DNA of 64,000 bases from Tubiluchus corallicola. Lineage: Eukaryota > Priapulida > Priapulimorpha > Priapulimorphida > Tubiluchidae. The notes under the pieces were generated by a model. That model was not told the origin of the DNA, did no database searches, and saw only the letters and a program-made list of their open reading frames with translations. Shown here in pieces: positions 10,218-49,478 of the stretch; the stretch's first letter is position 1; each line of letters opens with the position of its first letter. The stretch lies in contig JAQGDQ010000236.1 of NCBI GenBank assembly GCA_030141605.1, positions 30,001 to 94,000 on the forward strand, given 5' to 3'. The position numbers and the translations under genes are program-made.

Positions 10218-12879
10218 TCAATGTTGCCGCCTGGTTTCATACAAATACTTTATCTTATCATAGTTTTGCTTGACCTTAGCAGACAGATAAGCTATTTCAT
10301 TACGGTTTTGCTTTACCTTACTAGAGAAAACGCGCATGAGCTGAGATGTTTGCTTGGCGTTATAAATTATGAAGTCCAAAAGAGTGCTGAACTGTGCTTC
10401 AGTCAATGCACAGACTGTTTCTGTTGTCGGTTCTGTAGCAGTTAAACAGGTAGAAGCATCTAGTTGAAGACCTACAAGCATCATCTTAGCTACATCTACA
10501 AGCCACGTAAAGGCATATGATCCTTCAGGTACACAGGACGTCATTAATGTGGCTGGAAATGAAAGCTTTTTAAGTAAACTGTTCCAGTTGTGCCATAATG
10601 CGTAAAAAATGAAATTTCTGCTAACACGTGAGGCGTGATACTGTTCTGTACTAGACTTTCTGAATTAGAGATTCAAATTTTAAGATCAGAAAAACTATGA
10701 ACTGTTTTCACTACTAAAATGATATGTGGCGACATTAACAAAAATTTTAACTTGTACAAATGCGATGTTCTTGTAACATAAACAATTCGAACGTTCTCTT
10801 ATTTCACACTAAATGCAAACGGCAGAGAAAAGAGAGGATCAATAAAAATAACCAATGGAACACAGGAGTAGAAATAAACAGCTGAACGCAGACGACAACA
10901 GGAAGTTATAGTTAAACAGGAAAAGCGGAGAGATTTCGTTTTCGAGTAAAAAGATTTTAGTTGAAATCATACTTACCTATAGTGCTGTCATCAAGAATGC
11001 TGTTGTCTACTATGATGCCAGTAACCATTCCTGAGAAGCTGTACTCGCCTGGATCATCATGGTCTTGCCCAATTAGAAATGCCCCACCCCCTGGTATTGG
11101 TCCCGGATTGGAGTTAAAGAATCCAGCTAAATTTGAAAAAATTGAACGTTAACATTGCACATCTGAACGCATACAAGGTCAGGTGATCAGCATGAACAGA
11201 AGTGCCTATGCAACAAACCAATCAGAAGTTTCCCTCTAGGCTCTGGTCAAAGATACAACTCGCATTATGTATAATTAAAAATTTTATATGGAGTAACTCA
11301 GTACATTCTTTATTTTGTGTTCCAAACCTAATAAGTAACCTAGCAATTCTGACCTAAAATCTTTGATCTTAACATTGTCTTTAACATGTATATATTAATT
11401 AGTTTTATGTGAGCCTAAAATAATGCATTCTGATTTTCATTTTATTTTATTCCACAGCGTATGTAAACAATGTACTGCTTTTGGATCCTGACAAAGTGTA
11501 AGATCACTAAAGCTCGGCCTGTTGTTGTTGCCGATGGTGGTGTTGCACATTTATCTTTAAAAACTATCACAGGCCACACTTGTCATCGTAGGAGGCTGAA
11601 CTTTACATGAAGATAATATGACAACGCTAAACGCTTCTCATGATTTTCTCATGGAAACTATTAACTTTTACAAGAAATGAGCAGTAGGATGTGCTGGATC
11701 CAAGTACATTAGTGCTTCCATTCTAGTTCTCATGAAGTGCTCTGAGTTTTTGTGAATTGTTGCTTTTGTGTTCAATGTTTTCATGTGTTATTTTTTCACG
11801 TATTGATTTTCTATTCTACTTATGTATTGTTTCCATATATTGCCTTTTTAGTTCTTATTTCTTGTTCGGTTATTCCTATGCTCTTTTGCGCTTGCAAACT
11901 TTCTTGCTTATTAGGTATACAGATGCATTAGTATTCTTATATAATCAATATTTTAATATTGGCTTATTCGAAGTAAGACAATAAAAATAATATTATCGAG
12001 GTCACACATGTATGGCTCAACCAGAATAATTTTGAACAGTACAGCGTCTTTTCCATAGGCAGTGACTGGAATTTTTCGGAAATACCAACAAGACTTATAA
12101 CTCCTGAACGTTCATTTATGTAAACATGTTCTAATGCACATCTTACGTTGATTGTTTTTTACAATTTTTTAAGTTCATTGATAAATGATCTGGGTTGTGC
12201 TACCGATCTAAAATATAAGGACACTTCAATACATAATCTGTTATTCTGCTAACTCGGGAATTCGCTTAAAAGTTAAAATTCTAAACCCTGATTTAAATTA
12301 GTAAGTGATTACACTTATAACTGATTTTGCAAAAATGGTGATACTTCTTGTTATTAATAGGTTTGATTTTACAGTTTAGAGAAGTGGTCAAAAACCTGAT
12401 GTACTATGTATTACTTTGGAATTGTTCATCCACGTAAAATTTCCATTCGCCGTTGCCTGAAGTAGAATCGTAAGAACTACAAACCAAATGCCAGTTACCA
12501 TCCCTGATAGTTGTGCACAAAGTATTAGGGGGCTCCCTAAAAAGATAATAATGACGTAAGATAATAAAGATAATAATGATATAGTATAATAAAGGTAATA
12601 ACGGATGACGTAGTAGCGTAGTTTGTTTCACATACAACCCTATTCAATGTTTTCCACGAATTATAGCATTTTTAATTGTTTATTTTTTCGCGGAAAGAGC
12701 ATGCTATCGAAAAAATACATCACAATTGTTGATGAATTTAGTGATACTATTTTTGATCAAAATGATTTACTTATGCGAAAAATGTGTGCATAGTACTAGG
12801 AAGGACAGGCCAGTCTGGCAGATGTATTGATGACCAGAGATGCGGATTGAGAGAGGGAAATGTGGGTGAATTCGAATTT

Positions 12880-13370
12880 AATGAAGTAAAAACTTTTGAA
12901 GCGTAAGAAAATGCTCCTAAATAAATAATAAAATTCGTCTTGAAATTTTGAATCATGCGGTTTTAATGCATAAGAGCTTGCATTAGCAGCAACGTTGTAT
13001 AAAACTAGCAAATTTAAACTTTCGCGATGACGTTAGTCGCAGCCATTTTAACGGCAATAAGTTTAGATAACATTTGCGTAAAGTTCGTAAAAATAATCAG
13101 AGCATTTGCAACGTATATTTCACTGACTAGGCAAAAGTATAAATTACTTTATTTTGTCAATAAAACCAATAATTTTTTTTTGGTGAACCAGTAATGTATT
13201 TTGATGCACCCTGGGTTAGTGAAACAGTGACGTTTTACTTGCTGACGCAAAACATTTTAAATTATTAAGAACTTCAGTTACATGTGTTTTTCAAATAGGT
13301 AAGTGTAATGTGAAATAATGTATAACTTTGTATGGAAAGTTTCGACACATACTTTTCATTTAAGTTTACT
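12880..13370. repeat. Dispersed repeat copy, pair with 18390-18790
   Basis: It shares an ordered series of motifs with 18390-18790 in the same orientation: CTTG(C/T)ATTAGCAG(C/T)AACG, AATAATCAGAGCATTT, AAATTACTTT, TTGTCAATAA, AAATTATTAAG and ATGGAAAGTTT. The two are clearly diverged. Both lie in introns of gene A, flanking the intron that holds exon 3. I do not recognise the element. Confidence 0.65.
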
Positions 13371-14299
13371 TGCTTAGATCTTTTTCCTTAAACTAATTAG
13401 ATTTCACAGCTGGGAAGTTAACAACTCCTGTTATCACTTACGTTTTTCGGCCCTAAATGACATAATGCAGAGAATTGGTTTCATCACAGGCAAGAACATA
13501 TTGATTTCCGTCATTACCTCCACCCTGTGTGGCATAACCTATGAGGGCAAATTTCATAGTATCAGTCGTCTTTACCCACTGAAATAAATATGAAAGCCAA
13601 TAATATATTTTAAATGGTGACGGATGACCGTTAATTGGTAAAATACGTCAGATAATATATCTAGAATGAGCCTTTACAAGTAAGATGTCGGGCAAAATTG
13701 CCTCAAAGAAATATTCTTTGCGGTTTTGCGGAACATACTGGATTTTATCGACATCCCCATAGTTTTCCAAGTGAGGAGTTCTGCCACCAGCCAAAGGCTA
13801 TTCATCGTCTTCACGAAGAAGTTTGTCACTTAAACGTCCTATGACACTATTTTTTATGTTATCTCTTTTATAGCCTAGGCGGAATATACACTTCCTAATT
13901 TTTTAAACAGTTCAGATGCATACTTTCATGTGATATGGTAATTTAAATTAAGCGCCGTTAGTACTGTAACAAAATATTATCGCCCGCCATGACACTCAGT
14001 GCTATGACGTCACGTAAGGAAGAGCCATTTAATAGCTGCAGTGCAGTAGACATCCAGCGGCCCCAGCAAGCAAAGCACTATGAACAGAGCGGTTATTGCT
14101 GATTAATGATATATCTATTAATAAAAATGTTTCTTTCAATATTATTTATTTATTTATAGTAAATAAACTTATAAGAGCCAGTCTTCAATTTACAAACCTG
14201 CAAGGAACAGCAAATTTATAGTACATTGTACAACGCAGTATGATGTTACTGTACTATTATTTAAACTGTGTGTAGGCTGTATATTACAAAACTTTTAAC

Positions 14300-15115
14300 C
14301 AAACAAGAAAATCATAGTTCAAGACAATGATGGACTGATTACTGACCCATATCAACAGGCGCAGGTCATTGCAGTTTTTTTTTCAAAATGTATTCAATGA
14401 TAAAAAAATTGCATGAAAAATTAACAAAGTTGAAGCTCATCGCATGAACACACCTTTTACAACGGATGAAGGTAAATCTGCAGCTAGGTCACTAAGGAAC
14501 AGCAAGAGTCCAGGGATTGATGAAATAAATGCAGAATTACTTAAATGCAGAACAGATGCACTTTATAAATCAATTTCAACGATATTAAATAATATTGCTG
14601 AAACAGGAATATTTCCAAAGGATCATCAAATAGACATTCTTATGCCGCTGTCAAAACCTGGAAAAAAGAGAAAGCCAATAGTAAATCTAAGACAGAGTTG
14701 ATGCTGTTAATCATAATAAGAAAAATTCTAGCGAATGTAGGTCAGCAGAATGTATGACACACTGCATCAGTGTATTCCTAAAAGTCAAGCAGCTTTCCGG
14801 CCTGATAGAAATACAACTTGTTCAGACTTGAAAGACACTAGTAGAAAAGGCCATCTCTTCAGCAGATTATTCAATATCAATATCTATATATATATTACTC
14901 ATGGACATGTCCAAAGCATTTGACTCAGTTCGAAGAAAGAGACTGCTCCACCACTTACAAGAAATACTTAATCCTGACGAAATTCATATGATATCAATAT
15001 TATTGGAAGATTTTCTAACTAGTGTTAGATGTGAAGGCAGATTGAAGGATCCATTTTCCACGAATAAGGGAATACCTCAAGGACACTGCCTAATGTTTGA
15101 CCAATATGTTTGACG
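14300..15115 (+). mobile_element. LINE reverse transcriptase fragment, frame-broken
   Basis: Broken frames spell the front half of a non-LTR reverse transcriptase: NDGLITDPYQQAQVIAVFF, then KSPGIDEINAELLK (14510 onwards), PLSKPGKKRKPIVNLR, MDMSKAFDSVRRKRLLHHL (14901 onwards) and NKGIPQGHCL. These match RT blocks up to the PQG motif. The catalytic YADD block is missing because the copy stops near 15115. Stops and frame changes (near 14416 and 14700-14900) show it is dead. It sits antisense in an intron of gene A. Confidence 0.85.
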
Positions 15116-17039
15116 TCAATTCGATTGCACAAGACTTATATGCACGTCGAGCAGCAGTCAATCTGTAGACTATGAGAATGTTCTTGACTTCAAGATTTAA
15201 AGGTTCTCTGAAACCCCCATTCGCACATTCGAAAAAAATGCCACAAAGGTTTTCCTAAGTGTCTAAAAATGAAGCGCTCTTTCAATGAGTTAAAATGTTG
15301 TCTGAAAGGCATCTCTTCCTAGTTTTTAGTTTTCTTTTACTTTTGAAACTAACAAAGTGCAGACAATATACCCGGTGTGCACAGGTTCGTCGGTAAAGCC
15401 CAGGGAGCAAAATCTGTCATTACTGCCTTACTGTCTAGTTCTTTTCTCGTCGATCGTACCTGGGAATCAACAATTTCATGTGCTGGAAAGCGTAAAAACG
15501 ATCACTCTTTGTCAGAAGCATAGTCTGAACGGCACTACGGGCAAAAGATAACGTGGCAGTGAGACATTTATACAGCAGAAATCATCAGAAAACAGAAAAT
15601 TAACTGCAACAAGAAAGCAGCCCAGCGCGAAATAATAGCGACGTCACCCTAATACTTTTAAACATTGCACCTCGATACTAATATTTTTTCATCTATAAAA
15701 TATAGTACATTAAAGTACGTGTGGTGGACAAAGCTGTGATTTGAGTTGAACATAAAAATACTTCAGCGAGCGCCCCAGTCTTTCCATTACCGGTGTACAA
15801 CCTGACTTTGACCACATGTAAATACAATGAGAGTCACACATGCGCAGTGTCGTTCCTTACGGGGCATCACTTCCGCTTTCTTCCCCGATTTTTCGTTTTT
15901 CACAAGATTTCTATGCAGCGCTAAGTTTGAAGTCTTTCAATGCTAACCAAAGCGAAACGCGCAAGTTTCGAAAGAAGTAAACCCGCTTTTTTGTATCATG
16001 CTAGTCAGTAGAGAATTTTGACAGCAAGTGTCTACCAGGGTGTCAGTGAACCTTTAATTTACCTGCTTAATTGCTTCTTTCTTGTTTAGCGAGTAACAAA
16101 TAATGTATTTCAATAAAAAGGTGAAGTTCTTTATCTATCTTTATTATATTAAGCAGTGAAAGCGAAAGAGAAGCGAATGAGAAATGTGTGCCCTACCTCA
16201 TAATCCCTGTACGGGAACACTCTATGAGCTTTGACTTTGCGCTTTCAGGTACATGTAAATTGATCTGTCTAGGCCTAGGGAGTGTGTTTTGTGAATTTTG
16301 TGTTCATAGCCCTGTGCATACAAAAAGTCACCAAAGTGGGTGCTCCTCTCTGTAGTTTACAGCATTTAAACTTCTTAAGACCCCAAATGCATATCTAGCC
16401 CGTAGTAACTAAAAGGAGACTTGTTTTTGAAAATACTTTAAATTTAGCTCAAAGCCCCAGGAGCAGCTCTGAATGACAATCGAATAACTGGCCGATGTTC
16501 AGTGCCTTTGACCCTTGACTCAAGATCGCCGGTCACTAACCATTGTCTAAAAAACTGCCCAGGTGTCCTGCAAGTTTCGTAACTCCAGGTTTAGTGCTAC
16601 TCGAGACACTTAGTGTCATAGCGGAAAAACAAGATTGTAAAAAATCTATAATCACTCGCAGAATTTTAGTTTTAGTGCTAGTGCTGTGCCGAATTTTCGG
16701 ATACACCTATCCGGTGGTTAGTAGTGGTGTTTCTACACCGCAACCGACTGGTCGTTTAAAAAACTTTCATACATTTAAGAAGCTAAGTAGTTTACTGGTA
16801 CGTCCAATAAATCGTATGGTATTCAGGCAAACTTTTCTTATCTGTTTCTGAGATACGATGTATTGTGACAAACAGATTTTTGGATTTACCACCGCCCCGA
16901 TTTTTTTCAAAAGCCTCGTTGTTTAACAGTTGAAAACTTAAAGGCATCTCGTGCCATATAAGTGTTACTAATTAGTAGCTTGCTAGAATTGTGATGTTCT
17001 TCTAAATGACCTTATAGAACTTAGACCAGCTGCACCTAC
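15116..17039. other. Intron sequence of gene A, no feature recognised
   Basis: Unique-looking sequence of moderate GC content, somewhat richer in C and G than its surroundings. Short open frames occur at 15357-15551 and 16543-16851. I found no family pattern in them and treat them as chance. Confidence 0.3.
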
Positions 17040-17436
17040 CAGACATGATGTTATCTGGGGCCAGTCAACAATGATGACATCGTTCAGCTCTAAATACGTT
17101 GTTGGGTCACGTGTTGGATAGTTGACCATCATACCTTGCGGTTACGGGTCATCTTCTTCCAATTCGACATCAAAGCAAACTGCTGTTAAATCTAGAACGC
17201 AAGTTAAATTTTTGCAAGATTAAGAGCTAAATTCGTTTGTGGGGAATTGTAAACTTTAGCCCTTACATTTAGTTAATAGTTTATAGCCACGGTTTATCCA
17301 AAAAACTGTCCATGACAAAAGCATTCGTGTGAGTTTGTGCGAGAGAACGTTTATTTAACCTATATGAAAAATCAGTAGAAATACATTTTACTCATTTTAA
17401 AAAGCTTGATGAAGGCTTCGATTTCGAACAATGATT

Positions 17437-18130
17437 ATTATATATATATATATATAATAATCTTTATTTGCCATTAAAATACATTGATAATCACTGATAA
17501 AAACTTTACAGAGATAATCAATCAGTGTTAGTTAATAAAAACTTACACTGCTGAAGGCAAATGCGTCAGTGCAATCTAAACTACTGTGCAGTAATGGAAA
17601 GTAAGGACGAATAAAATCAAACATATTTACAACTATGCACAAAAAAATGAAAAAAACTATGATTTAATTAATATGGCCGTGGGTATATGAATTCTGAATT
17701 AGTGTGTATGTTGTCTGTGATGGTATTTCATATCTGGTTAATATTAGTGATTTTAATTTTGTTTTAAATGCCGATAGGGACTTGATTTGTTTAACCTGTA
17801 ATGGTAGAGAATTCCAAAGTAGAATTGCTTGTTTGATTACAGAGTTCGTTCCATAGCGGGTATTTGTCCTAATTTGTTTTAGATTGCTTGTTCTGGAATT
17901 GATGATAGGATTTGGAAAAAAAGGTAAATCTGTTATTCTGGAATGGTTTGCTGATGTTGTTAATGTATTTAAATATAAAAAGCAGAGTAAAATACTCTTT
18001 GTGTGCTTCAATGATTGGGAATTTTAAAGTTTTTCTCAGGTTAGTTGTTGAAGCTTTGAATTTTCGTCTACCTGCCTTATGTTTGTATGAGTACCCAGCT
18101 ATCAATCTCAACGCATAGTTCTGAAGGTGA
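17437..18130 (-). mobile_element. LINE 3' end, copy 2 (RT C-terminus with (TA)n tail)
   Basis: Overlapping minus-strand frames give NYALRLIAGYSYKHKAGRRK, then YGTNSVIKQAILLWNSLP and a lysine-rich end, stopping at 17664. This is the usual ending of a non-LTR reverse transcriptase polyprotein (RLI, then LWNSLP). A frame shift near 17900 breaks it. The 3' end carries AATAAAG and a (TA)n tail at 17437-17456. It is close in sequence to 6944-7605, pointing to one fairly recent family. Confidence 0.8.
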
Positions 18131-18389
18131 TTAATTAAAAACTTTTTAAATTAAATGCCTGCAGCAATTTTTTCTTAGGTTGCTAAATTGGTAAAAATGC
18201 AAGTAAATCGTTAGAATCAAAATTCGACTAATGACTAATGATTAATAACTAATTACATTCGACATTTAGTTAATCAATTGTCAATCCCAGACAAAGACAA
18301 CATACTTATAGGAGCTTAAACTGACTATCCCCGTATAGTTGTGTCATGCCTCACTTTGACGAGAACTTGAAGACTTCGCTTTAGGAAAA

Positions 18390-18790
18390 CCATTCGTTTA
18401 CATAAAACTTAAAAAAATTGTCTTGAGATTTTATACCACTCACACATGGTCTTACTGCATACAAAGCTTGTATTAGCAGTAACGCTGTATAAAACATTTG
18501 AAACAAGTTTAGATAGTATTTGAGTAAAGTTTGAAAAAAATAATCAGAGCATTTATAGCACACTCTTTACTACTAAGCAAAAGTGTAAATTACTTTGTAT
18601 TGTCAATAAGATAAACAATGTGTTTTTTGGTTAGCGAGTCAACAACATTTTACCAATTGGCAAGAGTACTTTAAATTATTAAGTTTTTTCTTTTCTAGTT
18701 ACCCAAGTCTTTTAAACAGAAGAGCAAGTAATACAATTTTGCATGGAAAGTTTTTTTTGGGACACAGTTTAACATTGCCCTTTTCTTTGC
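18390..18790. repeat. Dispersed repeat copy, pair with 12880-13370
   Basis: Second copy of the repeat described at 12880-13370, in the same orientation and diverged by substitutions and small indels. Confidence 0.65.
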
Positions 18791-19447
18791 CTGATTTACG
18801 TCGTGCGTAGGTAACGTCCTGTAATGGCGCGGCCGAAACAATATCGCGGGTGATTAAAATGAAAACAAATGAAAATTCCTTTTTAACAAAAGTACAATAT
18901 ACGCTTAAAATTGCTATAAACTAATATAATTTTTAATACCATTTCTCTGAATTCTACTTCAGGAATCCATTTTCTTGTCCTTTAAACATTTAATACAATT
19001 AATCAATTGAGTTTCAATTCACTGTTCAGTTACCTTCGATCTGCATGGATCCACTATGCACGTGCCGTCTGTACTCGGCAATAAGATTCTTAAAGCGTCG
19101 ACCCAGAGGTGCTAAATAAACGTAGTACAAAGGGCTATACAAAAATTGAAATACAACAAATTTATGATTTACACACAATTACAGAAAACGAAACGGATTT
19201 CACTGAGCTGTAAAGCAAAACAAACACTCTTTCCGAATATCGAACTCTGTATCGAATTCCACATATTTACCACTTTTTGTTACGTTATGTACGAAAGCTC
19301 GAATTATGAAACATCGTTTAAGCGAAATAAAACTGTTTTATTAATCACATTTTAATTTTGGGTTTTTGTTCAGTATTTTCTCACGAAGTCTTGAACTTAT
19401 ATAATTCTTAATATAAATCACTGTCCAGCATATAAAGCAGGTACAGC

Positions 19448-19738
19448 CAGGGCCTATTTCAGCCTAGGCGAGGCCCGGGGGAAGTGGGGCGTGTGAGGCC
19501 TCATCGGGGGGGGGGGGGGCGAGCGCTACCATGGTTGGCGCCCAGAAAATTTTTGAACTGCTAGAACGCCGGAGAAGCATTTTCGAAGAGAAAATATGGA
19601 GTTATACAGTTGTTAAAGGAAAGAACAATTGAAAAAAGAACTGCTTCATTCTCAACACCAGTTCTTAATACTTGTCAATACTGGCAAACGGTAAGGCAAG
19701 AGAGAGAGAGAGGGAGAGAGAGAGAGGGGGGAGGAAGA

Positions 19739-19806
<68 letters not shown>

Positions 19807-19897
19807 GCAGTATGTTCGCATAAAGCAAAAAAATGTTACCTTGGCACGAGGCCCCGGGCAAGTATCCCCACTCCCCCCCCCCTTGAAATAGGCCCTG
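19448..19897. mobile_element. hAT-like non-autonomous element with (GA)n expansion, copy 2
   Basis: It begins CAGGGCCTATTTCA and ends TGAAATAGGCCCTG, an inverted terminal repeat. It is flanked by a perfect 8-bp direct repeat GGTACAGC at 19440-19447 and 19898-19905. Eight-base duplications and CAGGG termini are typical of hAT transposons. There is no transposase inside. A (GA)n tract at 19698-19803 has expanded within it. The arms match copy 3 (21652-21891) in the opposite orientation. It lies in an intron of gene A. Confidence 0.85.
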
Positions 19898-21651
19898 GGT
19901 ACAGCACTCGAGTGTGTGACACGCCTACACATATTCATACTTAAAAGTTTGATGGTACTATAATCGTACTTCTGACCTTTAAAATTCGTTACAATTGCTT
20001 ATTAATTATTTGTCCATAATAGTCAGATGAACCCTTGGTCTGCATGAACGCTTTGGTACAAATGAGGCGAACAATGATAAAAAACCATTTGACGCTCACC
20101 ATATTCTGTAGCTCCTGCTAACGCTATTCCAGCAAGAATTCCAGCAAGTAAAAACTGTAAAGTAAAAATTTCAGCGCGATTAAAAATACTGACCCAATTT
20201 TTCATAGAGCGATAGTTATTATTTATTGAGACATTTTCAAAAATTTTCAGACTTTTCCAAATAGTGAGCTTGGCGTTGAGCCCATCACGGGTTTTAACTT
20301 AACTGTAATTATTATATTGTGCCCTGAAAATGTTATACACTGTCATCACATGTATCTGCAAAGCCAAGGAAGACCTAAAACCAAATTTAAAACTACGACC
20401 TGGACAGGGGAAGGTCACGTGTTTATTCTAAGTAGATTGATGTAAGCTGTACAAGTATACTTGTTAAAGATTTCTTGACCATTTTATATGACAACCTAAT
20501 AACAATGAAAACAGAGAAAGTTAATACAAAAGCATTACTTTTATTAAACAATTATGCCTTGCAACAAGAATAATTACAAAAAGAATAAAATCATCAGATA
20601 AGATCATTTAAATCGGATTTTCTAACTATTTCCACCCATCTGTTGGTTTGAATAAATGAAACGAACGCATTCGAAATGGTTTAGTTTGAACCACAGTCGT
20701 CATTGTGATAGTCCAATTTTTGACAGAAAACTTTTCTGTTTGGATAAAGCAAACATTCAATTTAGTCAGTGTTAAATTGTTAACAATTATGCTTGCACTT
20801 GTCGAAACGTGAATAAAATGTCTTATAATAAATGTATATTAAATGCCTTACCTATTAACAATTTTTGCAATTTAAACAGTATTTGCACCATATGCACATA
20901 CAAAATAAATTTCGCTGGTCACGATTTAAAAATATTTGGTATTTAATGATCTTTGCACTTTTAAAACATTGTACAATAAATCTCCTTAATGAATATTCAG
21001 TGACTAGTTGCTTAGCATATGGAAATATCAAGTCTAGGGGAAGAAACTGTTAGTTCTGTGAACCGCTGCCTATAGTTAGTAGTTAGGTTTGTATTGATGC
21101 GCGATTTAAATCCAACGTGTGAACACACTTCCGCTGACATGCAAACAGGCTTTGACTTACCTCGAAAACTGACCATTTTGAAGCATAATTTGGAAAACTA
21201 AACAAATTTTTCACTTTGTAAAAATACTTACAATTTTGATTTTTAGCGTTAATGCCATGATTTGCAACACGTATATATACTGGTAAAAGAACAGTGATGC
21301 ATATAAGTTTGAAAATCAGTTCGATGATATTTATAGGTCAGCCATCCTCGATAAGACCTAGATGTTATTAATATTATTATAAATCCGAAAACAGTAACGA
21401 CCAATAAGTGCCGCGTGACACAAAGATTTCAGTTTTCGACGTTTAGTTAGCAAAACAAACACGTAGCGTTAACAATTGTCAGAACCAAGTCGCTTATAAA
21501 CTTTCTCTGTTAGCACGATTAGCGTAAGCTCATAAACCAAAAACCGCCTTACCATAAAGTTTTATGAACGAAGTCCTGCATAAATGCAAGATTGTAGTGC
21601 TGCAAAGAGCACTTTCCTCATTTCTTCTAATCAATTTGCTTCACGATCAAG

Positions 21652-21891
21652 CAGGGCCTATTTCAAGGGGGGGGGGAGTGGGGATACTTCCCCGGGGCCT
21701 CACCCTCCAGGGGGGTCTCGCGCCAAGGTAACATTATTTTTTTTTGCTTTATGCGAACATACTGTATAACTCCATATTTTCTCTTCGAAAAAGCTTCTCC
21801 GGCATTCTAGCAGTTCAAAAATTTTGTGGGCGCCGAGGGGGCCTCACACACCCCACTTCCCCGGGCCTCGCTTAGGCTGAAATAGCCCCCT
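21652..21891. mobile_element. hAT-like non-autonomous element, copy 3, without the (GA)n insert
   Basis: It starts CAGGGCCTATTTCA and ends TGAAATAGCCCCCT. The flanks are CGATCAAG (21644-21651) and TGATCAAG (21892-21899), a 7-of-8 target duplication. The core reads straight through ATGCGAACATACTG to TATAACTCCATATT, so it shows where the extra (GA)n-bearing sequence of copy 2 sits. Confidence 0.8.
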
Positions 21892-21899
21892 TGATCAAG

Positions 21900-22860
21900 T
21901 AACACTGCGACTAAGATGAAACAAGAACATGCTCAAAAAAGTCATATTTATTTATCTATATAATTAAAACTCATATTGCAAGGAATTTAATCAAACTGCG
22001 CGTATGTAACAAACGTGTAGACCTATATACCAACAATAAACGTTATTCTGTTAAAAATTACAGTTTAGCAACCCCGTCTGAAATGAAAAATTACGTCGCT
22101 TAGCTCATTACCCCTGCATGTCACTCATTTTTGTATTTCATCTATAATTATGTATAACGATAGCTGACGTAGACGACTTTTTGATCGACTGTCGTTTCTT
22201 TCTTCTTTTACTGCCATTATTGTTATTATCTTCTCTGTATCAACAATTGTTATTATGGACGCGCTGAAGAAAAATAATTAATAAATTTTGTTTGGTGTTA
22301 AACTTTTATGTTGTTCTTTTTCGATTTATAGTAGGCGGGAAAGCAAACATTGGGCGAAAACAACGTCTGCCCATATAATTTGCTACTTCGGCACTAAAAA
22401 GTAATTATATTAATACCACAAACTTTTGCCCGTCAAGTCTATAAAGAATAAATAAATTAGTCAAACAAAAAATCAAACAATCAAATAACTTGTCCATTAG
22501 ACATTATCTTAAAGTATAACATTCAAACACAACAATTACAAATATAAACATGCAACACAACAATAACAATAAATAAAAATAATGCTAGCATAACTTCATA
22601 TGGGCTAGCATGTGACTCTACATGTGTCATAGATCAAAACCATTTCAAAACATCACATACACAGCAGAACGCATTTAAATAAATAATCAAAACATCACAT
22701 ACACAGCAGAACGCATTTAAATAAATAATCAAATCAGTCAAACATTTCCGACATTATCAAACTACAGCAAAGAATTAATATTAGTCTGCAGAGAAAAACC
22801 ATTATTATTGCTATAAAAGAAAGTTTTAGTTTATACAACATTTAGGACAACGAAAAGCTA
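21900..22860. other. AT-rich stretch with a 42-bp tandem duplication
   Basis: No gene seen. At 22647-22730 a 42-bp unit containing CATCACATACACAGCAGAAC is present twice in tandem and is identical over the part checked. The rest is AT-rich. Confidence 0.5.
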
Positions 22861-22879
22861 ATGTAATCACTAACATGAT

Positions 22880-23980
22880 TTTTTAGTAATATGTGTTCAA
22901 AAGTCTTAAATCCGTAACGAAACTGATTTATCTACTTATCAAGTTCGTGGTTACGATCTTATAAGGAAAACAGCTACTGAACTTGGGGTCTTGCAATTTA
23001 CGTGTCCGAAAATTTAAATTGGAGACATGTTATTATTCCTAACGTGAATAACTTACTTTGGGAAATCCAATTTATAGATATTTCTGGTTTTGATTCAGGC
23101 CAAAAGGTATGTCTAGGGACTTCTTATCGACCACCGTTCGCAATTAAAGCTGACCGTGATACATTTATAAATGAATTCTCTACTGTTCTTTCATTTGCTT
23201 GTAAATTATATGGCTGCATTTTACTTTCTGGAGATTATAATTTCGATTTTTTACGACTCGTCCAACGTCCGATTATTAGATCTTTTTTGCCTAAAATTAC
23301 TCGCCCAACGAGCATTACACCTCACAGAAAGACTTTGGTTGACAACTTTTTTAGTCACTTCAGTGCTATCGATGATCAAATTTCTGCCGGTATCAATTCT
23401 CTGATATTCTCTTGTAGGCTATTCTTCTAAAGAATTGCTCCGCGGCACGAATTCCTGCACATATTATGGGGCGGGCATTACACAAATATATTTCACTTCG
23501 TATGTCATACTAAACCAGCCCCGGGTAAGAGAGGTATTTCAGCTAATAAAATAATCTTTATAGAATTTAACATCTTAGAAAACACGAACCTGCCCAGACT
23601 GACTGACTGCGGTTAACTGGCTGATTGGCTACTTGAAAGACTGATGCGCAGATTGACTAACTCTAAGCTAACTGACAGATTGACACGGCTTATTTTGTCA
23701 CCTTTAAACTTAGAACGTCTAAACGCAAACCAATAAAATACGTTGAGTATAGAAAAATGTCAGATGAGAACATTTTATCATTTTCGCGTTCACTGAGAAA
23801 TGTTGATGTCGCTGACTATTTAAATTGTGAAGACGTTAATGATAATTATCAAATTTTTAATAATTTCATTAAAAATGCTAGAGATACTCACCTTCCCTGG
23901 TTCCAATATTACATGAGTGACAATCATTGCAATCATTTCTGTATACAATTGATTGTCATTCAATTGCTGATCATTTAGTT
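22880..23980 (+). mobile_element. LINE endonuclease-domain fragment, frame-broken
   Basis: The frames give YQVRGYDLIRKTATELG, then after a one-base shift near 22990 LAIYVSENLNWR and CLGTSYRPP. LLSGDYNFDFL, LPKITRPTSIT and KTLVDNFFSHF follow. This is the apurinic endonuclease (exonuclease/endonuclease/phosphatase fold) of a non-LTR retrotransposon, with the SGDYNFD block visible. A later frame (23757-23978) has RKMSDENILSF and the linker that precedes the reverse transcriptase. No RT follows. The copy is broken by stops at about 23430 and 23978. Confidence 0.8.
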
Positions 23981-25059
23981 GATCTAGGATCATCTGGACG
24001 TCAAAGTATTAAAGTGGTGGTTAGTTCAGTTTTTTTCAGTTATTACTATTGCCGCTGTGAGTGACTAAAAACTATCCATTGACCCATTCATATCTGCTTA
24101 ATAGAAAGAATGTTTATGGTTTAATGATTTATCGTAAGAGGTTGTGAAACATAATATTTGATGATTTGTTGTATGATGTTATGAAAACGGTTGTCATTTT
24201 CCCATTTGTAGACACCAAACAGGAATAACTGGTGAATTTAAAAATTTAATAAAGAGATAAATATTTAAGTGTTGATCTGATTATTCTTGAATAACTGTAA
24301 CTCACACGATTGCGTTATACAATTCAGCATTCTGTCAGCATCCAAGGTTCAGTGGCAGGACCTAATTAATATTGTATGGCTATGTGGTGGGAATAGAACT
24401 TAGAATAGAATTGCCAAGGATAATTCTTTAAAATGAGATGATTTTGAGCGATCATTAGGACATTATCAAATATCTGTTATTCCAGTCAGATAGGCAGGGA
24501 AACACGGTATACTCGATGCTGGATTCCTGGTATTGGCAACGAATTTAACTAGAACAAACTGCTCTTTTATCGTGACACGAGCTCCACGTAGCAAACAAAT
24601 GAAAGCATATAACACGCAAACTGTGCAGGAACCTCTCTGTCTGACGGACATTAAAATTAATGAAAGGAAAGCACTAAAACACTTTTTCAGCGAGCCATGA
24701 TTTTTAGTGGCAAAATGGTTGATTGCAAGTAACGAAATTCGTGTTTCAAAGCCACATTTGCCGAACAATCCACTAATATAAAATGCGGGCTTTCTCAATA
24801 ACGCCCTTAACTCCTTGTATTCTACGTAATTTTGACGTTCTGACAACTAGACACTTGACTTATAATAATCCAAAAATTTCATTTCTATCTCTACTATCTA
24901 AGGGAACTATTCTCTTTTTTAATGACACACCCCAAGATGTTTTTACTATGTGGGCTGCAGTAAACGCGCAGGTGCAAATCACGTGACCATTTTTGCACAT
25001 CCAGGGCTGAAAAACAGGAATGTAGTCACTGTAGCCTAGTAGCCTAGTTGACGTGTGAG
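23981..25059. other. Stretch upstream of the DHRS4-like gene
   Basis: AT-rich up to about 24460, then more balanced. A minus-strand frame (24466-24846) is open but has no family pattern I know. I see no exon that I can support. Confidence 0.3.
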
Positions 25060-25068
25060 TATATATTA
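25060..25068 (+). promoter_or_regulatory. Possible TATA box of the DHRS4-like gene
   Basis: TATATATTA lies 63 bp before the ATG at 25123. That distance would place a transcription start near 25090 with a short 5' UTR. Such strings are common in AT-rich DNA, so this rests on position alone. Confidence 0.3.
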
Positions 25069-25122
25069 TTGCTCGGTGTTTGTGTGAACTGATCAATAAA
25101 CGCTTTCAAGGAAGTAAATAAT

Positions 25123-25914
25123 ATGAGCTCTTCTGGGAAGAAATTCGCAGGAAAGGTGGCCCTTGTTACGGGTTCATCTTACGGGATCGGCTACTGCATT
25201 GCAAGACGCTTGGCTCAAGATGGCGCCCATGTCATGCTCAGCAGCAGCGTCAAGGAGAATCTGGACAAAGCGGTGAATACTCTGAAAGCTGAAGGGTTGT
25301 CAGTAAGTGGTACCTTGTGTAACGTGTTGAACGAAGACGAGTGGCAGCCGCTGATCGATGCTACAGTAGCGAAGTATGGCGGTATCGACTTCTTTATCTC
25401 AAACGCCGGTAGTCTGGGTGGTGAAGGCGTGCAAGGACCCGTCCTGGGCGTGACACAGGAAGGCTGGGATAGAGTTTGGAAATTCAACGTTAAATCTGGC
25501 TTCTTTCTGGCAAAGGCAGCTGCCGCTAACATGGAGAAAAGAGGAGGAGGTTGTATAGTATTCGTTACATCTCAAGTGGGATACAGTGCTTGCGCTGGTT
25601 GCGAAATACTTCCTGGCATTGGCATGTATTCTGTGACCAAGACGGCATTGATTGGGCTCATAGATGCCATGGCGCCCCAGTGCGCAGAGAAGGGCATTCG
25701 AGTCACGGGGCTAGCACCTGGATTGATCAGGACAAATATGGCTAAGGGTTACCCACCAGAGGTATTTGATAATTTTCTGGAGAGGTGTCCAATTAAACGA
25801 ATCGCAGGTCCTGAAGAGATGGCGGGAACTGTGTCGTTTCTGTGCTCAGAAGACGCTAGCTACATTACTGGAGAAACTATTGTGGTCAACGGCGGGTTTC
25901 CAGTCCGACATTAG
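25123..25914 (+). CDS. DHRS4-like short-chain dehydrogenase/reductase, intronless
   Basis: A 263-aa classical SDR on one exon, using NAD(P)(H) to reduce or oxidise carbonyl or alcohol substrates. Residues 16-23 are TGSSYGIG (Rossmann glycine motif), 94-96 NAG and N122 lies in FNVKSG. Catalytic S150, Y169 and K173 lie in YSVTK. The C-terminal LCSEDASYITGETIVVNGG and the early KAEGLSVSGT closely follow the DHRS4 pattern. Differences from DHRS4 are three. The arginine after strand 2 that helps bind NADPH is serine (SSS at 40-42). The S150-to-Y169 spacing is about six residues longer than the usual 13. The protein ends VRH, not a peroxisomal SRL tail. The start is chosen because it gives the normal SDR N-terminus and sits after a stop-rich leader. 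The GC content is higher than its surroundings. Lack of introns suggests a retrocopy or transfer. Confidence 0.9.
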   Translation: MSSSGKKFAGKVALVTGSSYGIGYCIARRLAQDGAHVMLSSSVKENLDKAVNTLKAEGLSVSGTLCNVLNEDEWQPLIDATVAKYGGIDFFISNAGSLGGEGVQGPVLGVTQEGWDRVWKFNVKSGFFLAKAAAANMEKRGGGCIVFVTSQVGYSACAGCEILPGIGMYSVTKTALIGLIDAMAPQCAEKGIRVTGLAPGLIRTNMAKGYPPEVFDNFLERCPIKRIAGPEEMAGTVSFLCSEDASYITGETIVVNGGFPVRH

Positions 25915-27000
25915 AAAACCAGTGGTCACTATAAATGTCACAGCTTTTTCAATTCTGACATTGTGCTTAATGTGCTTAATTTGCTCATTATTATTAATAC
26001 CAGGGGCAGTGCACTGAAATTTTTAAATTAGTTTAAACAGCGCATAGCATATTATTTAAATCATAATGCTCGATGAAAAACAAGTAAGTAGGCACTATTA
26101 GAAATATAGATAAACAATGAACCTATACTTTTTTGTGAGTAATACGTTCGTAGCAATTTTCACGTTTTTGAAACGTTTTTGTTATAATTTATGCATAGTT
26201 TGCATCTTGTAGATTTTCTTGTACAGTTTAAGTCGTTAAGGGAAAGTCTGTTAAACTGGCATTAGTTTTGTAAACATTCATCAGTGTCATTCATCTGTGA
26301 TTAAAATTCGTCCATTGTTTCAGTACTCATTTTTCACGAATTTATTAAAATACAATCAAAATACATGCTTTTCAGAATATAAATTTGTTAGATTAAACTT
26401 CTCAGGTGTAATGTGTTATTTCACCTTTTCAATTTTACTACATTATAGTGCAGTGAATCTATTCAGGTGCAGATACCATTTAACCGGTTTACTATAAACT
26501 GCTACATGCCTATGAGCAAAATATACATAAACTCATTTCTTCACGAGGGCGCCTCAAAATTTGTATTTTTTCAATATAATTCTGTGCCAGCTGTCTGAAA
26601 GCCTGCTGTACCCTGCCTGTCCGTCAATGGCATGCATAAATGTTCTATTGTCCAAGGTCGAAATAGTTCCAGTTCACTGCATTCTATAATTCCCATGGAA
26701 GTAAGCCCGTAGAAAAAGCGTGAGCTGTACAGACTGCAGTATTCAGTTTGCATGTACATGGTCTAAAGGGATCGATATAAGCGCAGTATTACGACTTGTA
26801 CTTTGTATTGGGTATCTGTGCCGGGAGATAAATAGATTATGCGCTTTAATGATTGTCAAAAAAACTAGGCTGGTGTTTATTACGAAGTCATAAGTTTAAG
26901 ATTCTGGATTACGACCAAAACTGTAAATGCTGACTGCAAAAAATCTTTGCTGACTTGATCTTTGTTTCAACATCATAATTTTGCTATGCTTGATTACCTG
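25915..27000. other. Stretch downstream of the DHRS4-like gene
   Basis: AT-rich. It probably starts with the gene's 3' UTR, but I see no canonical AATAAA close by. No other feature recognised. Confidence 0.3.
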
Positions 27001-27370
27001 GAAAATCCATTTTATTGCAACCCCATTTTAACCCTTTTGCCCATGGCACGTGACCTGACCTCGCCCACTTTTTGAAGTCTTACTGCACATTTACCCTTGC
27101 CAACCTACCCCATTCAAAAACATAGGCTTCTAGTCAAATAGTGTATGTAGATAAAGCCACTCGCCCTAATTTTTACATTTTGGCCCTGCTGCTGTGACCT
27201 TGGACCTGTCATGATCCCCATGCCGTTTTGTGATTGTCTTTGCCAGTTACCTACCCTGCAACTTTGGTGGTACCTTTATTGCACCTATGGAGTTATTGGC
27301 AATACCCCGTTTTAACATTTTCACCCATGTCACGTGACCTGACCATGCCCACTTCGAAAAATGCTTTGTT
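27001..27370. repeat. Local duplicated motif (two diverged units)
   Basis: A segment around CCCATTTTAACCC, CCCATGGCACGTGACCTGAC and GCCCACTT at 27021-27075 recurs at 27305-27358 as CCCGTTTTAACA, CACGTGACCTGACC and GCCCACTT. The spacing is about 285 bp. It may be a diverged satellite-like or transposon-internal repeat. Confidence 0.45.
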
Positions 27371-27899
27371 TACGCCTACACTCGCCCACCTATCCATACT
27401 TGCATAAACATTCAGTGACTCTAAGTCCAATACTGTAAGCATAGTGTATGTGCAATACAATATCCAATACAGTGCATAAGCATGGATGAACTTAAAAAGC
27501 GTATTAAGGTTTTAGTGAATTGAATGTGGTACACTACAATTATTATTAACTTTAAAATTATTAAAAACTAAAAACAATTTGCTGAATCAGAAACACTTTA
27601 ACTGCAGTGACTAACGGGTGCTAATATATATTCGCTAACGGGTGGTAATACATCACTATACCACTGCCTGAGCCCCCACCCCAGTATATGCATAATTGCA
27701 TATATCATGTAAATTCAATACAATTTGGCTAGAAAAATCTGCACTGGATTTAAAAGAAACCATGTTGTGTGAGTTATGCCAATACCTCATTAAACAAAAT
27801 ATAGAATTACCCTGTAGAAATAATTTTCGAAGGGTATAATGTTAGCTTTATCACAAGAAGAGAATGAATTATGAAAAGGAAAAACAAAGAAAGAGAAAG

Positions 27900-28145
27900 A
27901 CCAAAATGAGAACCATTAATTGCTAACATATACATTTTAACTATTAGCGTACACAAAACAACAGTACAATCAAACAAACAATATTAATCAGTGTAATCAA
28001 AAACTAATCATCTATATAAACTAATCAAATCTATAAATAAGCCGTCTAAAACGAGAGTAATGTGTGTGCAATCTACGACACTGTATCTACACATTCCCAA
28101 TGAGAGTTTGGGCGGCAGAAGTCTTTTATAGCAATGTGTTCTGCC
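27900..28145. repeat. Dispersed repeat copy, pair with 44020-44222
   Basis: It shares AACAAACAATATTAATCAG, ATCATCTAT(A/G)TAAACTAATC, ATAAGCCG(T/G)CTAA, CTATCTACACATT-like and CAATGAG motifs in the same order and orientation with 44020-44222. Unknown family, probably an old retroelement 3' region. Confidence 0.6.
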
Positions 28146-28767
28146 TATAAATACATATCTTCCGTTGTTCAAGCTTTTCTGCTTTGGTAATTAAAAAATT
28201 AAGGGCAATTTAGGAACCTCGGCCATTCAGCGCTTTTCCCCTTTAAAGTATGAAATTTTTCCAATCTTCCACCTTTCCTTTACAGAATTATAAATTATTG
28301 GTCCCTCAGAACTGCTAACATCACTGTTCACGTGGGAGGGGGCGATCCTCCCTCTCCTCTCGCATAACTCGGTAAATGAGTGCGCCCAAAACGCTCCATC
28401 ATTTTTTCTTCACTAAGTCTTACTACCATCAACATCAATTACTGTATTCATATTCATAACATACAAAATTTTGCTCGTGTCGTCTGTTAAGTGCAAGCGG
28501 CAAGGTGTCGTCAGGATAGTCAATCTTTCAAAGCCCTGGCAGACTGCATGTTTCGGGGGTGGAAAAACATCGTCAAAACATTATCAAAATTCAAGCTAAA
28601 ACAATGGTAGAAACATGTTAAAACTCATAGCTCCTCTTGTCCCACGGACAGCTGCGCTTTGCATAGTGCCGTCGTGAATATACATCCACTAAGGACCTCC
28701 TTCCCGTCTATTACTCATCAAAGATAATCTACACAAAGCCATTTTCACTAGATGTCAAAGTAAGATA

Positions 28768-29425
28768 CCGTAAAACGGGGTGAGTTCGCCACCCGAGGGT
28801 GAGTTCGCCACCCCTTACGTAATGGCCATTGTAGGTTTGCTGTAACTGTTGTTCAGTGTTTAATGAACAGATATCATAATCACCGTCATTATAAGCAGTT
28901 TGCGATAGTTATCTTCTTTCAATTCGCACTAGAAGTATTCCATTCTGCGCTACATATTATTTGTCTACTATTTCTTGCTACTTAACATGCCACGCACCTG
29001 CACCCCTGTACCGGGTCATAGATACCAAAATTATACCCCAGAAGCTCTGGAAGCTGCCCTACGTGCCGTCAAGAATACCAACAGGACAATCAACGCAGCG
29101 GCGAGGCAATTCGGAGTTCCAAGAAATACCCTTTCTGACAAACTCTCAGGAAGTCATCCGCGGAAGACCGGAGGTCAGCCAGTGTTCTCCGCCGCCGAGG
29201 AGCACGAAATCGCCAACACTCCAAGTGGCCGCTGAATGGGGGTTCCCAATGACTGTCATCGATCTCCGACTACTGATTAAGAGCGTTCTTGACGCGAAGG
29301 GAATCCAGGAACGACGATTCAAGGCAAACACCCCTGGAATAGACTTTGTCAAATCATTCGCCCGAAGGAACAATCTGGTTTTCAGAGTGGCTGGCAACAT
29401 CAAGGGCGCCCGTCTTACGGTATTA
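28768..29425 (+). pseudogene. pogo-like (Tc1/mariner superfamily) transposase remnant
   Basis: From ATG at 28987 the frame has TPEALEAALRAVK, then INAAARQFGVPRNTLSDKL, the Psq/pogo helix-turn-helix. A one-base shift near 29220 moves into a second frame with VAAEWGFPMTVIDLRLLIKS and TPGIDFVKSFARRNNLVFR, the CENP-B-type second helix-turn-helix. The DDE catalytic domain is absent because a (CT)n tract starts at 29438. Upstream at 28766, TA is followed by CCGTAAAACGGGGTGAG and a doubled GTGAGTTCGCCACC. That is a plausible left terminal repeat beside its TA target. No matching right terminus was seen. Confidence 0.75.
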
Positions 29426-29435
29426 ATAATATATT

Positions 29436-29579
<144 letters not shown>

Positions 29580-31773
29580 CCAAATAGCGGTAAGGGAGGG
29601 CACTGTGAAGAGTCCTGTACCATTTATTAACATTGCCCATCAAGAACCACTTTCTCATTTACATCATCGTCATTTAAAACAACTTTAATATTTCGCTACG
29701 GTCATATGGCTTTGTGTAATGCATTTTCATTCAGATTTCATTTACAAATTTGTAAACTTAATAGGGACATACTCACAGGAGACCCAATCTCCGGGCTGCC
29801 TTCAATTCCTCCATCTCACTGTTGCAAAGTATACCGAGCCATGCTTTCGGTTCATATTTTTACGTTGCATAATATTTTCAATATAATATTATCTTCATTC
29901 ACGTATGTTTATATTTTGAAATGATGTAATTACGTTAGCATATTACTTACCTCATCTACAATCTCGTATATCTTTTAGGATTATTAATTGCGTCATACTT
30001 CTCTAATGACGTCATCTTTAAGTTCATGTTTTTTCAATTTGTTATATAGTAAACCTATTAATTGGTATTTAAATATTTATTAAGTAATTAACTTAAAGTT
30101 AATGAGCCTTTTATTAAATAATTTAACAATCAGTATTTCTGTCCACTGTATATACCAACTTTCTTGTTGTTATAATTGTCATTTGAATAATTAATTGTTT
30201 GCTTGCAAAGTGACATTTTGTTACTAATACATTTAATTTTTGTTGTATATACATTGACAGTTCAACATTTTCTCATTATACTACGTATAATTTGTCATTA
30301 TTATACCCACAGTTTTGTAAATTAGTATTTTTGTATACCCTATAGACATGTTTTGTTAACAGAATTATTTTTTCACATAATTATTTTTTCCCAATGCTCT
30401 TTGTAAATATTTCGTTATATCTTTGATATTCCATTGTTGTATTATATGCCATCAACTATTTTTTCGTATTTCGTTTTTCCGATACATTATAGTTTTTGAT
30501 ATTCCATAAATATAATGTCTTTAACTGACATCGTCAGCTGTTAGTTAATGATACAATAATAATAATTATAAAAAATTTCATGATTTTTATGATTTTTATT
30601 ATTGTATCTCTACCTTACAGCTGACGAAGTCTGTGACGGACGAAAGTTCCCGGAAAAATAAAAGTTACTTGAGATTTAAAGGGCACTTTGCCTTCTTTAT
30701 GACTGTGCCTGCATTTATTAACAATAAGCATTTAAGCTGGCAACCAAGTACCATGGCAAGTCTCAGAAGAGCACTATCTTATTTAAACGCAGGCACCCCT
30801 AACACGAAGCAATACGTGACGTTTTATTGAGGTGACGGAGTACTGGTTTCTATATTCATAATACACGTAGCATACGACAACATTAATGAAGAACAAGTTT
30901 GCATTCTAAACTGTTCTAAACTTATTTAAAACAACCGCACGTTTCGAGCTAGGCTGAAACACAAATCCAAATTACTCAGTGATGAAATTATATTCATATC
31001 CTTCAACTTTTGCGTTTAGTACAAAAGTGCCTCGTGGTTATGCAGTATAATTAATTGATTTTTTGTTAAATATCATTTACTAGCTTTTGTTCATAATTGT
31101 GGTGGTTGTCATTTTAATTTTTCGATCTAATCTTTAATTATTGTCTTTCTCGACCAACACCAAATAATAAACAAATTTGTTCTACAAATATAATTTATTC
31201 ATTTCAACCACTTTTGGACACCGACAATAAAATAATTATAATTCTATTGTTTTAGACCCATTTATCATTTTGTGGGAAGATGATTTTTTAAGCCATCTCA
31301 TCTTGCTCTTTACACATGATTGCATTCATTCAGCCCTTTCTGTTCACCTTACTTTGAATCATGGACGAAACACGCTAACCATGGGAAATTACTTGTGCTT
31401 AAAAACTACAAATAGAATAATCAATTAGAACTCAATCAACAATCAATCGATAATCAATAATCAATAAATACTTTATAAAATAAAAATAAGACACTTAAAT
31501 ATAAATAACTGATATTTCATTGCCCACACCTGTAGTGCATCATAAAAATGAATTGGGAATTTAAAAAATAAAAAATGTCACCTCAAATAAGATTACTGTC
31601 AGCAAACATCAGAATCTCAAGATTACACGGCATGTGACTTTCATTTTTTCTGAACTCTCTATTTCCAAAAAATGATTAGGTAAGTTGTAAGCTTTGAAAA
31701 AGTCCAGTACCGCCGCACCGCTACGTACAACTGATATAAAAGTTAATATTATGTAAAATAGCAGTATACAAGT
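29580..31773. other. AT-rich stretch without recognisable gene
   Basis: Highly AT-rich, with TTATTTTTTC-like runs near 30370-30400 and TGATTTTTATGATTTTTAT near 30582. I found no coding pattern and no obvious transposon ends. Confidence 0.3.
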
Positions 31774-43565
<11,792 letters not shown>

Positions 43566-46602: not shown

Positions 46603-46968
46603 TTACTATTACTGTTACTGTTACTGTTACTGTTACTGTTACTGTTACTGTTACTGTTACTGTTACTGTTACTGTTACTGTTACTGTTACTGTTACTGTT
46701 ACTGTTACTGTTACTGTTACTGTTACTGTTACTGTTACTGTTACTGTTACTGTTACTGTTACTGTTACTGTTACTGTTACTGTTACTGTTACTGTTACTG
46801 TTACTGTTACTGTTACTGTTACTGTTACTGTTACTGTTACTGTTACTGTTACTGTTACTGTTACTGTTACTATTACTATTACTATTACTATTACTATTAC
46901 TATTACTATTACTATTACTATTACTATTACTATTACTATTACTATTACTATTACTATTACTATTACTA
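46602..46968. repeat. (TTACTG)n passing into (TTACTA)n hexanucleotide array
   Basis: About 265 bp of near-perfect TTACTG repeats, then about 105 bp of near-perfect TTACTA repeats, with a single sharp switch near 46868. It follows directly on a LINE fragment. The alternating Thr-Val and Ile-Thr frames read from it are by-products. Confidence 0.95.
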
Positions 46969-48540: not shown

Positions 48541-49478
48541 TCCACACGCAATCTTCACGAGCCACAGCCACCAACACAATAAACAACAACAAGCAGCTAT
48601 AGCCACTATCATAAACAGACTTTAATTCATCAGAAGCTATTATTTTACTATTAGTAATGCACAAATACATGCATCCTCTTCAAGCTCCATCGCATGTCTA
48701 TGCGCACGATTTTGGTACACATGTAAAATTGCATGACTGCGCGCCGCCTTACCGTATTACTGCCGCCGTTACCGTTTCTTGAATGTGGACTTATTCACTA
48801 ATTTCTTTTGTAGTATATCAACATGCGTCAGTAGTTACACCGTCTGACTTTTTGAATATTCAAAAATTTATGTTATAAGTGAAGATTTTTCTGGCACCCT
48901 TTACCCACAATTTATCTAATAGTCTTTTTACTGGCCATTAACTAAGCTTTCGTTGTCTTGATACAAGAATAGCATTCATGGGACATTTTTGTCAGGAAGT
49001 TCTAAACCCATTAGCTTTTTATGGATGTATTTTTGAAAAGCATGACTGCATGAGTTATTTGTTTTACGTCAGCACCCTATGTTACACTAAGCCATTGTGA
49101 CATTTAATAATTGTGCCAGCGTTAATTTCGACTCGAAACGTTTACGTAAAATTCTGTTTTGTGTTTGCTTTCATGGTAATCAATAGATAACAAATTTTCT
49201 GGTACAACGCTACTACCTTTTGGCAAATTGATGCTTTGTATTTCATTAATCCATTTTGTTGCTGGGTAGCTTCACAAATCTTTGAATATCTCGCTGCCAT
49301 AGTCACTAATATCTTCCTTTGTGGGTATTTCATCAATCTAATTTATGTCTAAACTGGTAGTTTGACAGCATCACCTTCTAATTTTTCACGTTGAACTATT
49401 CTAATTATTAATAAAATACAACTGCAGTTTTTATGTTAAATTTTGTCAACTTTTCACGATTGAAATCAAAGTTTGGTC
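48541..49478. other. Stretch upstream of the PAN-lectin gene
   Basis: AT-rich. It presumably holds the promoter and 5' UTR of the plus-strand gene at 49479. No clear TATA box close enough to be convincing. Confidence 0.3.

Follow-up and report, generated by a model that had tools for sequence, protein, structure and literature searches.

Pentraxin-like genes with a putative C-terminal cysteine-helix module in the priapulid Tubiluchus corallicola

Two neighbouring genes, A and B, in the window analysed here (the whole stretch of 64,000 nucleotides, C1822:30001-94000 within a 343.5-Mb assembly of 2344 contigs) encode pentraxin-like sequences that run on beyond the pentraxin domain into a C-terminal tail, and dozens of other sites in this genome carry tails of this kind. 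With moderate confidence we interpret the two genes as members of a lineage-expanded family of secreted pentraxin-like proteins, in which a C-terminal module made of a conserved cysteine and a predicted helix would serve assembly or the docking of a partner.

Genes A (21258 to 10218) and B (43565 to 31774) lie on the minus strand and were assembled exon by exon from the genomic sequence alone (Table 1). Each fits seven exons with the phases 0,1,0,2,1,1 after exons 1-6, and GT-AG borders were found at all 12 introns; the two pentraxin-like genes with seven exons and shared intron phases that had originally been predicted were hereby borne out at the level of sequence. Exon 1 of gene A was picked among several candidates by its phase and donor, not by similarity. 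A hydrophobic leader, judged by eye, is present in each gene in agreement with the signal peptides proposed before, and gene B has an open frame of 298 residues across its seven exons without any stop.

Table 1. Exons and tail features of genes A and B (positions within the window).
Feature	Position	Strand	Remarks
Gene A exon 1	21232..21258	-	MALTLKIKI, proposed signal peptide start; 27 nt, same length as exon 1 of B
Gene A exon 2	20100..20154	-	Remainder of leader
Gene A exon 3	17040..17191	-	N-terminal cysteine, pentraxin domain start; in-frame TAA 17144-17142
Gene A exon 4	13442..13578	-	Pentraxin domain; in-frame TAG 13455-13453
Gene A exon 5	12415..12536	-	Pentraxin domain; second cysteine of core pair
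Gene A exon 6	10977..11126	-	Pentraxin domain; GQDHDD motif, calcium-site-like
Gene A exon 7	10218..10552	-	Pentraxin domain end, then tail
Gene A tail proper, residues 251-325	10221..10445	-	Cysteine 262 at 10412-10410, then predicted 59-residue helix
Gene A tail tandem duplication, 42 nt	10242..10325	-	30/42 identical; two 14-residue units V-x2-N-x3-I-x2-L
Gene B exon 1	43539..43565	-	Leader start
Gene B exon 2	42077..42143	-	
Gene B exon 3	40893..41032	-	N-terminal cysteine, pentraxin domain start
Gene B exon 4	39517..39656	-	
Gene B exon 5	36124..36230	-	Second cysteine of core pair
Gene B exon 6	33743..33886	-	Without GQDxD motif
Gene B exon 7	31774..32045	-	Pentraxin domain end, then tail
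Gene B tail proper, residues 245-298	31777..31938	-	Cysteine 255 at 31908-31906, then low-confidence predicted helix

Gene A had been taken for a working gene, with no mention of its two in-frame stops, a TAA in exon 3 and a TAG in exon 4. Among the in-frame splicing alternatives for these two exons no option was found that scored near the used sites: around exon 3 the acceptors scored only -12.7 and -0.8 (used acceptors: 9.4-16.9), around exon 4 the donors scored -2.4 to 4.6 (used donors: 6.0-12.6) and the acceptors -10.3 or 1.6, and skipping of exon 4 would rely on the acceptor scoring 1.6, the used sites being high by construction since the scores were derived from these same 12 introns. 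The equivalents of exons 3 and 4 are open in a paralogue of gene A on contig C155, as is that of exon 4 in a second paralogue on C176. A second allele of exon 4 was also looked for and discarded as a candidate; the search of the own genome returned the exon itself and three partial matches (86-88 bases, 75-80%), with no further copy at >80% identity. Because of the two stops, the lack of a well-scoring splice bypass and the open exons of the paralogues, gene A as assembled here is most likely a pseudogene; sequencing error at both stop sites is possible but less likely. Gene B is plausibly a working member of the family.

Judged from its genes and repeats the window consists of animal-type genomic DNA, with a G+C content of 32-39% as measured per 4-kb step. 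No third copy of the genes was present among the best 60 tblastn matches in the window, and scans of the window for Rfam families (gathering threshold) and tRNAs gave no match. A search of the assembly for COX1 did not find the gene. The interval separating genes A and B contains, on the plus strand (25117-25914), a short-chain dehydrogenase in one open frame of 265 aa (adh_short_C2, 6.2e-53), and an exon-like stretch on the minus strand (3154-3471) matches the N-terminal domain of acyl-CoA dehydrogenases (E 6.9e-11). Two open stretches on the plus strand resemble a PAN domain (49464-49922, weakly, E 0.073) and a C-type lectin domain (51057-51581, E 2.2e-8), and these may be neighbouring recognition genes. 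Transposon-like remnants were recognised in a Psq-type HTH (28933-29235, plus strand, 1e-7) and a reverse transcriptase fragment (14832-15113, plus strand, 3.5e-6, slightly below the cut-off). Repeats comprise a 90-bp minisatellite of ~6.5 copies with long open stretches on either strand (54333-55006) and a TTACTG unit repeated ~61 times (46603-46967).

The similarity of A and B to each other exceeded that of all 500 shuffles (z 7.0). In Pfam, with curated cut-offs of 27.6 bits for PF13385 (Laminin-G-like / concanavalin A-like superfamily) and 25 bits for PF00354 (Pentaxin), the former was passed by both genes (Laminin_G_3; A: 3.6e-9, 37.4 bits; B: 2.9e-9, 37.7 bits) and the latter by gene A (2.9e-8, 34.1 bits) and by all seven relatives tested (54.1-75.3 bits); gene B gave no match to PF00354 at E<=1 and did not reach its cut-off. 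One recognised domain was found in each gene, the Pfam match starting at residue 51 in A and residue 69 in B (profile position 14) with the leader counted, and a long N-terminal region as in long pentraxins is not present in either. Searches of the PDB at E<=10 retrieved pentraxins without exception (eight distinct sequences for gene A, one for gene B), neuronal pentraxin-2 being matched at 2.5e-6 by A alone and at 0.0022 by B alone. A profile of A and B matched nine distinct sequences at E<=0.01, belonging to NPTX2 (5.7e-7), PTX3 (5.8e-6), a SAP-like pentraxin (5.3e-5) and NPTX1. The cysteine pair of the core disulfide, which had been claimed for both genes, was confirmed as C77/C143 in A and C77/C142 in B and aligns with NPTX2 and PTX3. 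Gene A contains GQDHDD and all four aligned intronless relatives GQDQD, a calcium-site-like type of motif (GQDxD) whose residues may be calcium-binding positions; the motif is absent from gene B. The classical pentraxin signature, given as H-x-C-x-S/T-W-x-S in a passage of PMC10598717, was absent from A (WHLVCSSYDS) and B (WHHFCIVQSF), even with a pattern that also allowed Thr in the last position.

The extent of the tail needed to be redrawn. Since the NPTX2 alignment of the A+B profile continues into exon 7, reaching residue 244 of B, the first ~36 residues of this exon form the end of the pentraxin fold; they show a C...W...C pattern, with two cysteines for gene A and three for gene B. The 90-110 residues with several cysteines that the original prediction had assigned to the tail therefore correspond to the whole of exon 7, and the tail proper measures 75 residues for gene A and 54 for gene B, each with one cysteine. 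Compared over their full length the two tails show no significant similarity (219 of 2000 shuffles scored equally well), but the stretch of 18-20 residues that follows the last cysteine does (8 of 5000 shuffles).

That the tail resembles nothing recognised so far, as had been supposed, held up in profile searches with the tail, which gave no convincing match in Pfam or the PDB. No tail of A, B or their relatives reached a curated Pfam cut-off, the best being Homeodomain for gene A (E 0.0043, 17.3 bits against a cut-off of 22.9), which was rejected as a chance match of a charged helix, and RPN5_C in one of 13 tails (0.046). In the PDB the tail profile found no convincing solved structure (best E 0.49) and the tail no match to PTX3; a covalently connected trimer of cytochrome c555 was dismissed, its whole-chain value of 0.0018 being composed of three weak repeats of which none was significant singly. 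The open-licence literature, searched by title and the start of the abstract, yielded no pentraxin with such a C-terminal tail among the matches listed, and the opening of the one paper retrieved for pentraxin and 'C-terminal coiled-coil' concerns activity-dependent alternative splicing. In view of these results it is very improbable that the tail is a known domain or pentraxin feature missed by the libraries, the room for this explanation lying in the search scope of Pfam, the PDB and open-licence papers. A and B hence represent a family of pentraxin-like proteins whose C-terminal module could not be named from Pfam, the PDB or the literature searched.

Structure prediction with AlphaFold2 was performed on single exon-7 sequences, and the pentraxin part of these fragments is unreliable. 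For gene A a helix of 59 residues (H52-110) was predicted with a block mean pLDDT of up to 97, and for gene B a weaker helix of 37 residues with a pLDDT of only ~47-63, so that the helical end expected for both tails is well predicted in A and of low confidence in B. A 14-residue unit occurs twice in the helix of A; its close relative L024 seems in the alignment to have one. The hydrophobic peak of the gene A tail lies at a period of 3.53, with N and L at the heptad core places, and the N at such a place is reminiscent of trimeric autotransporters, a resemblance that was set aside.

Hydrophobic periodicity was further analysed in four groups of related exon-7 rows (A-like, 18 rows; B-like, 6; intermediate, 9; single-frame, 8), 7 of the 48 aligned rows being left out. 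Of 2000 column permutations per group, 1 reached the period of 3.6 in the A-like group, 0 did so in the B-like and 7 in the intermediate group; in the intronless single-frame group 96 did, and there the period is not significant. For the heptad period of 3.5 the corresponding numbers were 6, 26, 98 and 352 of 2000, i.e., it is weaker than 3.6 in the first three groups. A periodicity of 3.6 suits an amphipathic helix that packs against a second helix, against a partner or against a membrane. The last of these would make the tail a membrane- or surface-anchoring or lipid-binding helix that presents the pentraxin domain on a membrane or matrix, an explanation that we consider unlikely: the excess of the plain amphipathic period over 3.5, long hydrophobic stretches in several A-like tails (e.g., SSLIYIIF) and the membrane binding and pore making reported for Limulus CRP in a part of PMC6503050 are in line with it, but the 3.53 peak and the heptad core N and L of gene A speak against it, as does the strong charge of B-like tails. 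Assembly is in our view the most likely role of the tail, by analogy with PTX3, whose N-terminal regions form tetrameric coiled coils according to a section of PMC10598717.

The genome-wide recurrence of the family was evident from sequence searches. At least 110 matches to PF00354 at E<=0.001 were counted in the own genome, exon by exon, with repeated contigs included and 150 of 170 candidates scored. Exon 7 of gene A had 53 matches at E<=1 and 45 at E<=0.001 (itself and repeated contigs included), and exon 7 of gene B 38 and 9, respectively (itself included). On each of six contigs (C1752, C1831, C1974, C2072, C2074, and C2107) four exon-7 places occur with equal scores, which suggests a duplicated region or a redundant assembly. 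Other tailed genes consist of a single open frame of ~300-420 residues, e.g., IRNVCTLPQHDFEALIDL, and are therefore apparently intronless. An exon 5- or 6-like stretch was located in the 1.5-kb flanks of 17 of the 40 loci L021-L060, gene A included. At three further loci (L061, L062, and L064) nearly every exon end examined carries a plausible splice site in the phase of A and B (exon 3 and exon 4 ends in L062 and L064; exon 5 ends in L062 and, for the acceptor only, L061; exon 6 ends and exon 7 start in L061 and L062), although sites in other phases are present at several ends too and the fitting one was taken. Searching IMG/VR for relatives of gene B returned none.

The alignment of 48 exon-7 rows was built from genes A and B, 12 single-frame loci, and 34 of the remaining 38 loci in L022-L040 and L042-L060. 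Left out were L037 and L040 (translations identical to L036 and L039), L053 (incomplete), L054 (stop before the usual start), and the matches without a fetched locus (33 from the exon-7 search with A, 18 from that with B); near-identical pairs such as L049/L051 and L043/L045 may be alleles. The tail cysteine, the third conserved one, is kept in all 48 rows and a leucine after it in 41 (absent from L016, L042, L044, L056, L057, L058, and L060), counts that are partly so by construction because rows were chosen by their exon-7 similarity or a visible tail. A strict LTExQ is found in 19 of the 48 rows and an LPQH-like motif in 11; the remaining 18, gene B among them, have neither. Of the new family of secreted recognition proteins first proposed, the family itself stands with its tail in dozens of places of the own genome; the role in recognition is presumed, and so is the oligomerisation or partner binding first suggested for the tail.

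Several pentraxin genes of the same genome were recorded alongside. No tail was found in the exon examined of L003, L004, L007, L008, and L018-L020, for which a further exon is possible, or in the exons read on C2060, C1385, C1639, and C1992, contigs with multiple pentraxin matches each. Loci L001, L002, L005, L006, L009-L012, and L014 are apparently intronless; most encode a hydrophobic leader and, ahead of the domain, a basic linker rich in G/Y or G/N, and L012 contains long GNGGNGYGNQN repeats; these intronless genes look like multiplied retrocopies and possibly encode matrix or adhesive proteins. The tailed pentraxin L016 (271-1431, minus strand) has a cysteine-rich, somatomedin B-like insert inside the domain (Pfam E 0.036, below the cut-off).

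In the tree of the 48 rows A and B fall into two deep groups on either side of the midpoint root (100/99), A clustering with L022-L024 (96/92) and B with L042-L046 (96/87), the exact place of B being unsure owing to long branches. By this placement the neighbouring genes A and B did not arise from a recent duplication, and the idea of a recent paralogous pair had to be given up. Pooled over 17 pairs, dN/dS was 0.59 in the tail and 0.42 in the adjoining domain part. Two of the 17 pairs exceeded 1 in the tail (L010/L014, 1.29; L052/L059, 8.15; adjoining domain part, 0.51 and 0.99); the sequences are short, and either chance or a rapidly changing tail could lie behind these values. Values above those of the domain part and the two pairs above 1 imply that the tail is only loosely held. 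The tail might accordingly be a loosely constrained extension in which the cysteine only is kept, as a third disulfide capping the fold, and the helix has no partner. This we judge to have a small chance of being correct: it would accommodate the invariant cysteine in the face of post-cysteine lengths ranging from 19 to 69 residues as well as the higher dN/dS, but the leucine after the cysteine is mostly retained and A-like tails are alike well into the helix.

On the favoured reading of an assembly or docking module the protein would be secreted, and its pentraxin/laminin-G sandwich presumably binds glycans or other surface ligands. In the C-terminal module an amphipathic helix would come after the third conserved cysteine; this helix most likely joins subunits or docks a partner and could be the C-end counterpart of the N-terminal coiled coil of long pentraxins. 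The tail cysteine would anchor the base of the helix through a disulfide bond, in which the N-terminal cysteine encoded by exon 3 may be the partner; such a bond is possible because, as described in a part of PMC10687090, the N and C ends of laminin-G domains lie on the same side. The exon-3 cysteine as an obligate partner of the tail cysteine is unsupported, as a cysteine directly preceding the domain is also present in tail-less pentraxin exons of the own genome and is thus not tied to the tail.

If this reading is true, the C-terminal cysteine-helix module would represent a separate way of assembling pentraxins, those known so far either carrying an assembly region N-terminally or lacking one, and an invertebrate would appear to use pentraxins as a many-gene recognition set. 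C-type lectins and fibrinogen-related proteins form such sets in other invertebrates. A more far-reaching scenario, which we regard as possible though doubtful, is a large, hitherto undescribed and still diversifying repertoire of secreted pentraxin-like recognition proteins confined to one animal lineage, comprising dozens of genes of which some spread as intronless copies, in which the new module builds variable heads into oligomers or mixed hetero-oligomers. The tail module is small and can be tested by deletion.

Among known systems the short pentraxins (CRP, SAP, and the SAP-like pentraxin 3flp of Limulus) resemble A and B in having one pentraxin domain, and we know of none with such a tail. 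They differ in carrying the signature specified in the excerpt of PMC10598717 mentioned above, which is absent from A and B. Polydom/SVEP1, in cnidarians as well, is secreted and contains a pentraxin domain (PMC12549020, in part), but has many added domains in contrast to the one recognised domain of A and B. According to the part of PMC10687090 used here, the second disulfide of the ADGRG4 pentraxin-like domain, C200-C228, ties to the C-terminal residues, a link that the cysteines in the first part of exon 7 would likewise make, and a second cysteine pair near the C end is found in ADGRG4 and NP1 and missing from CRP and SAP; the ADGRG4 domain however is part of an adhesion GPCR, and no tail of the A/B kind is described for it in that part of the source. 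NPTX1 and NPTX2 share with A and B the core cysteine pair and, following the same portion of PMC10687090, the second pair near the C end, and among solved structures NPTX2 is the best match to the A+B profile. The match to NPTX2 stops at residue 203 of its 219-residue chain, whereas B extends 54 residues further and A 75, and neuronal pentraxins carry a long additional region N-terminally rather than C-terminally, as stated in a section of PMC10598717. PTX3, like A and B, combines a pentraxin domain with a helical region, which is N-terminal in PTX3 and, by prediction, C-terminal in A and B.
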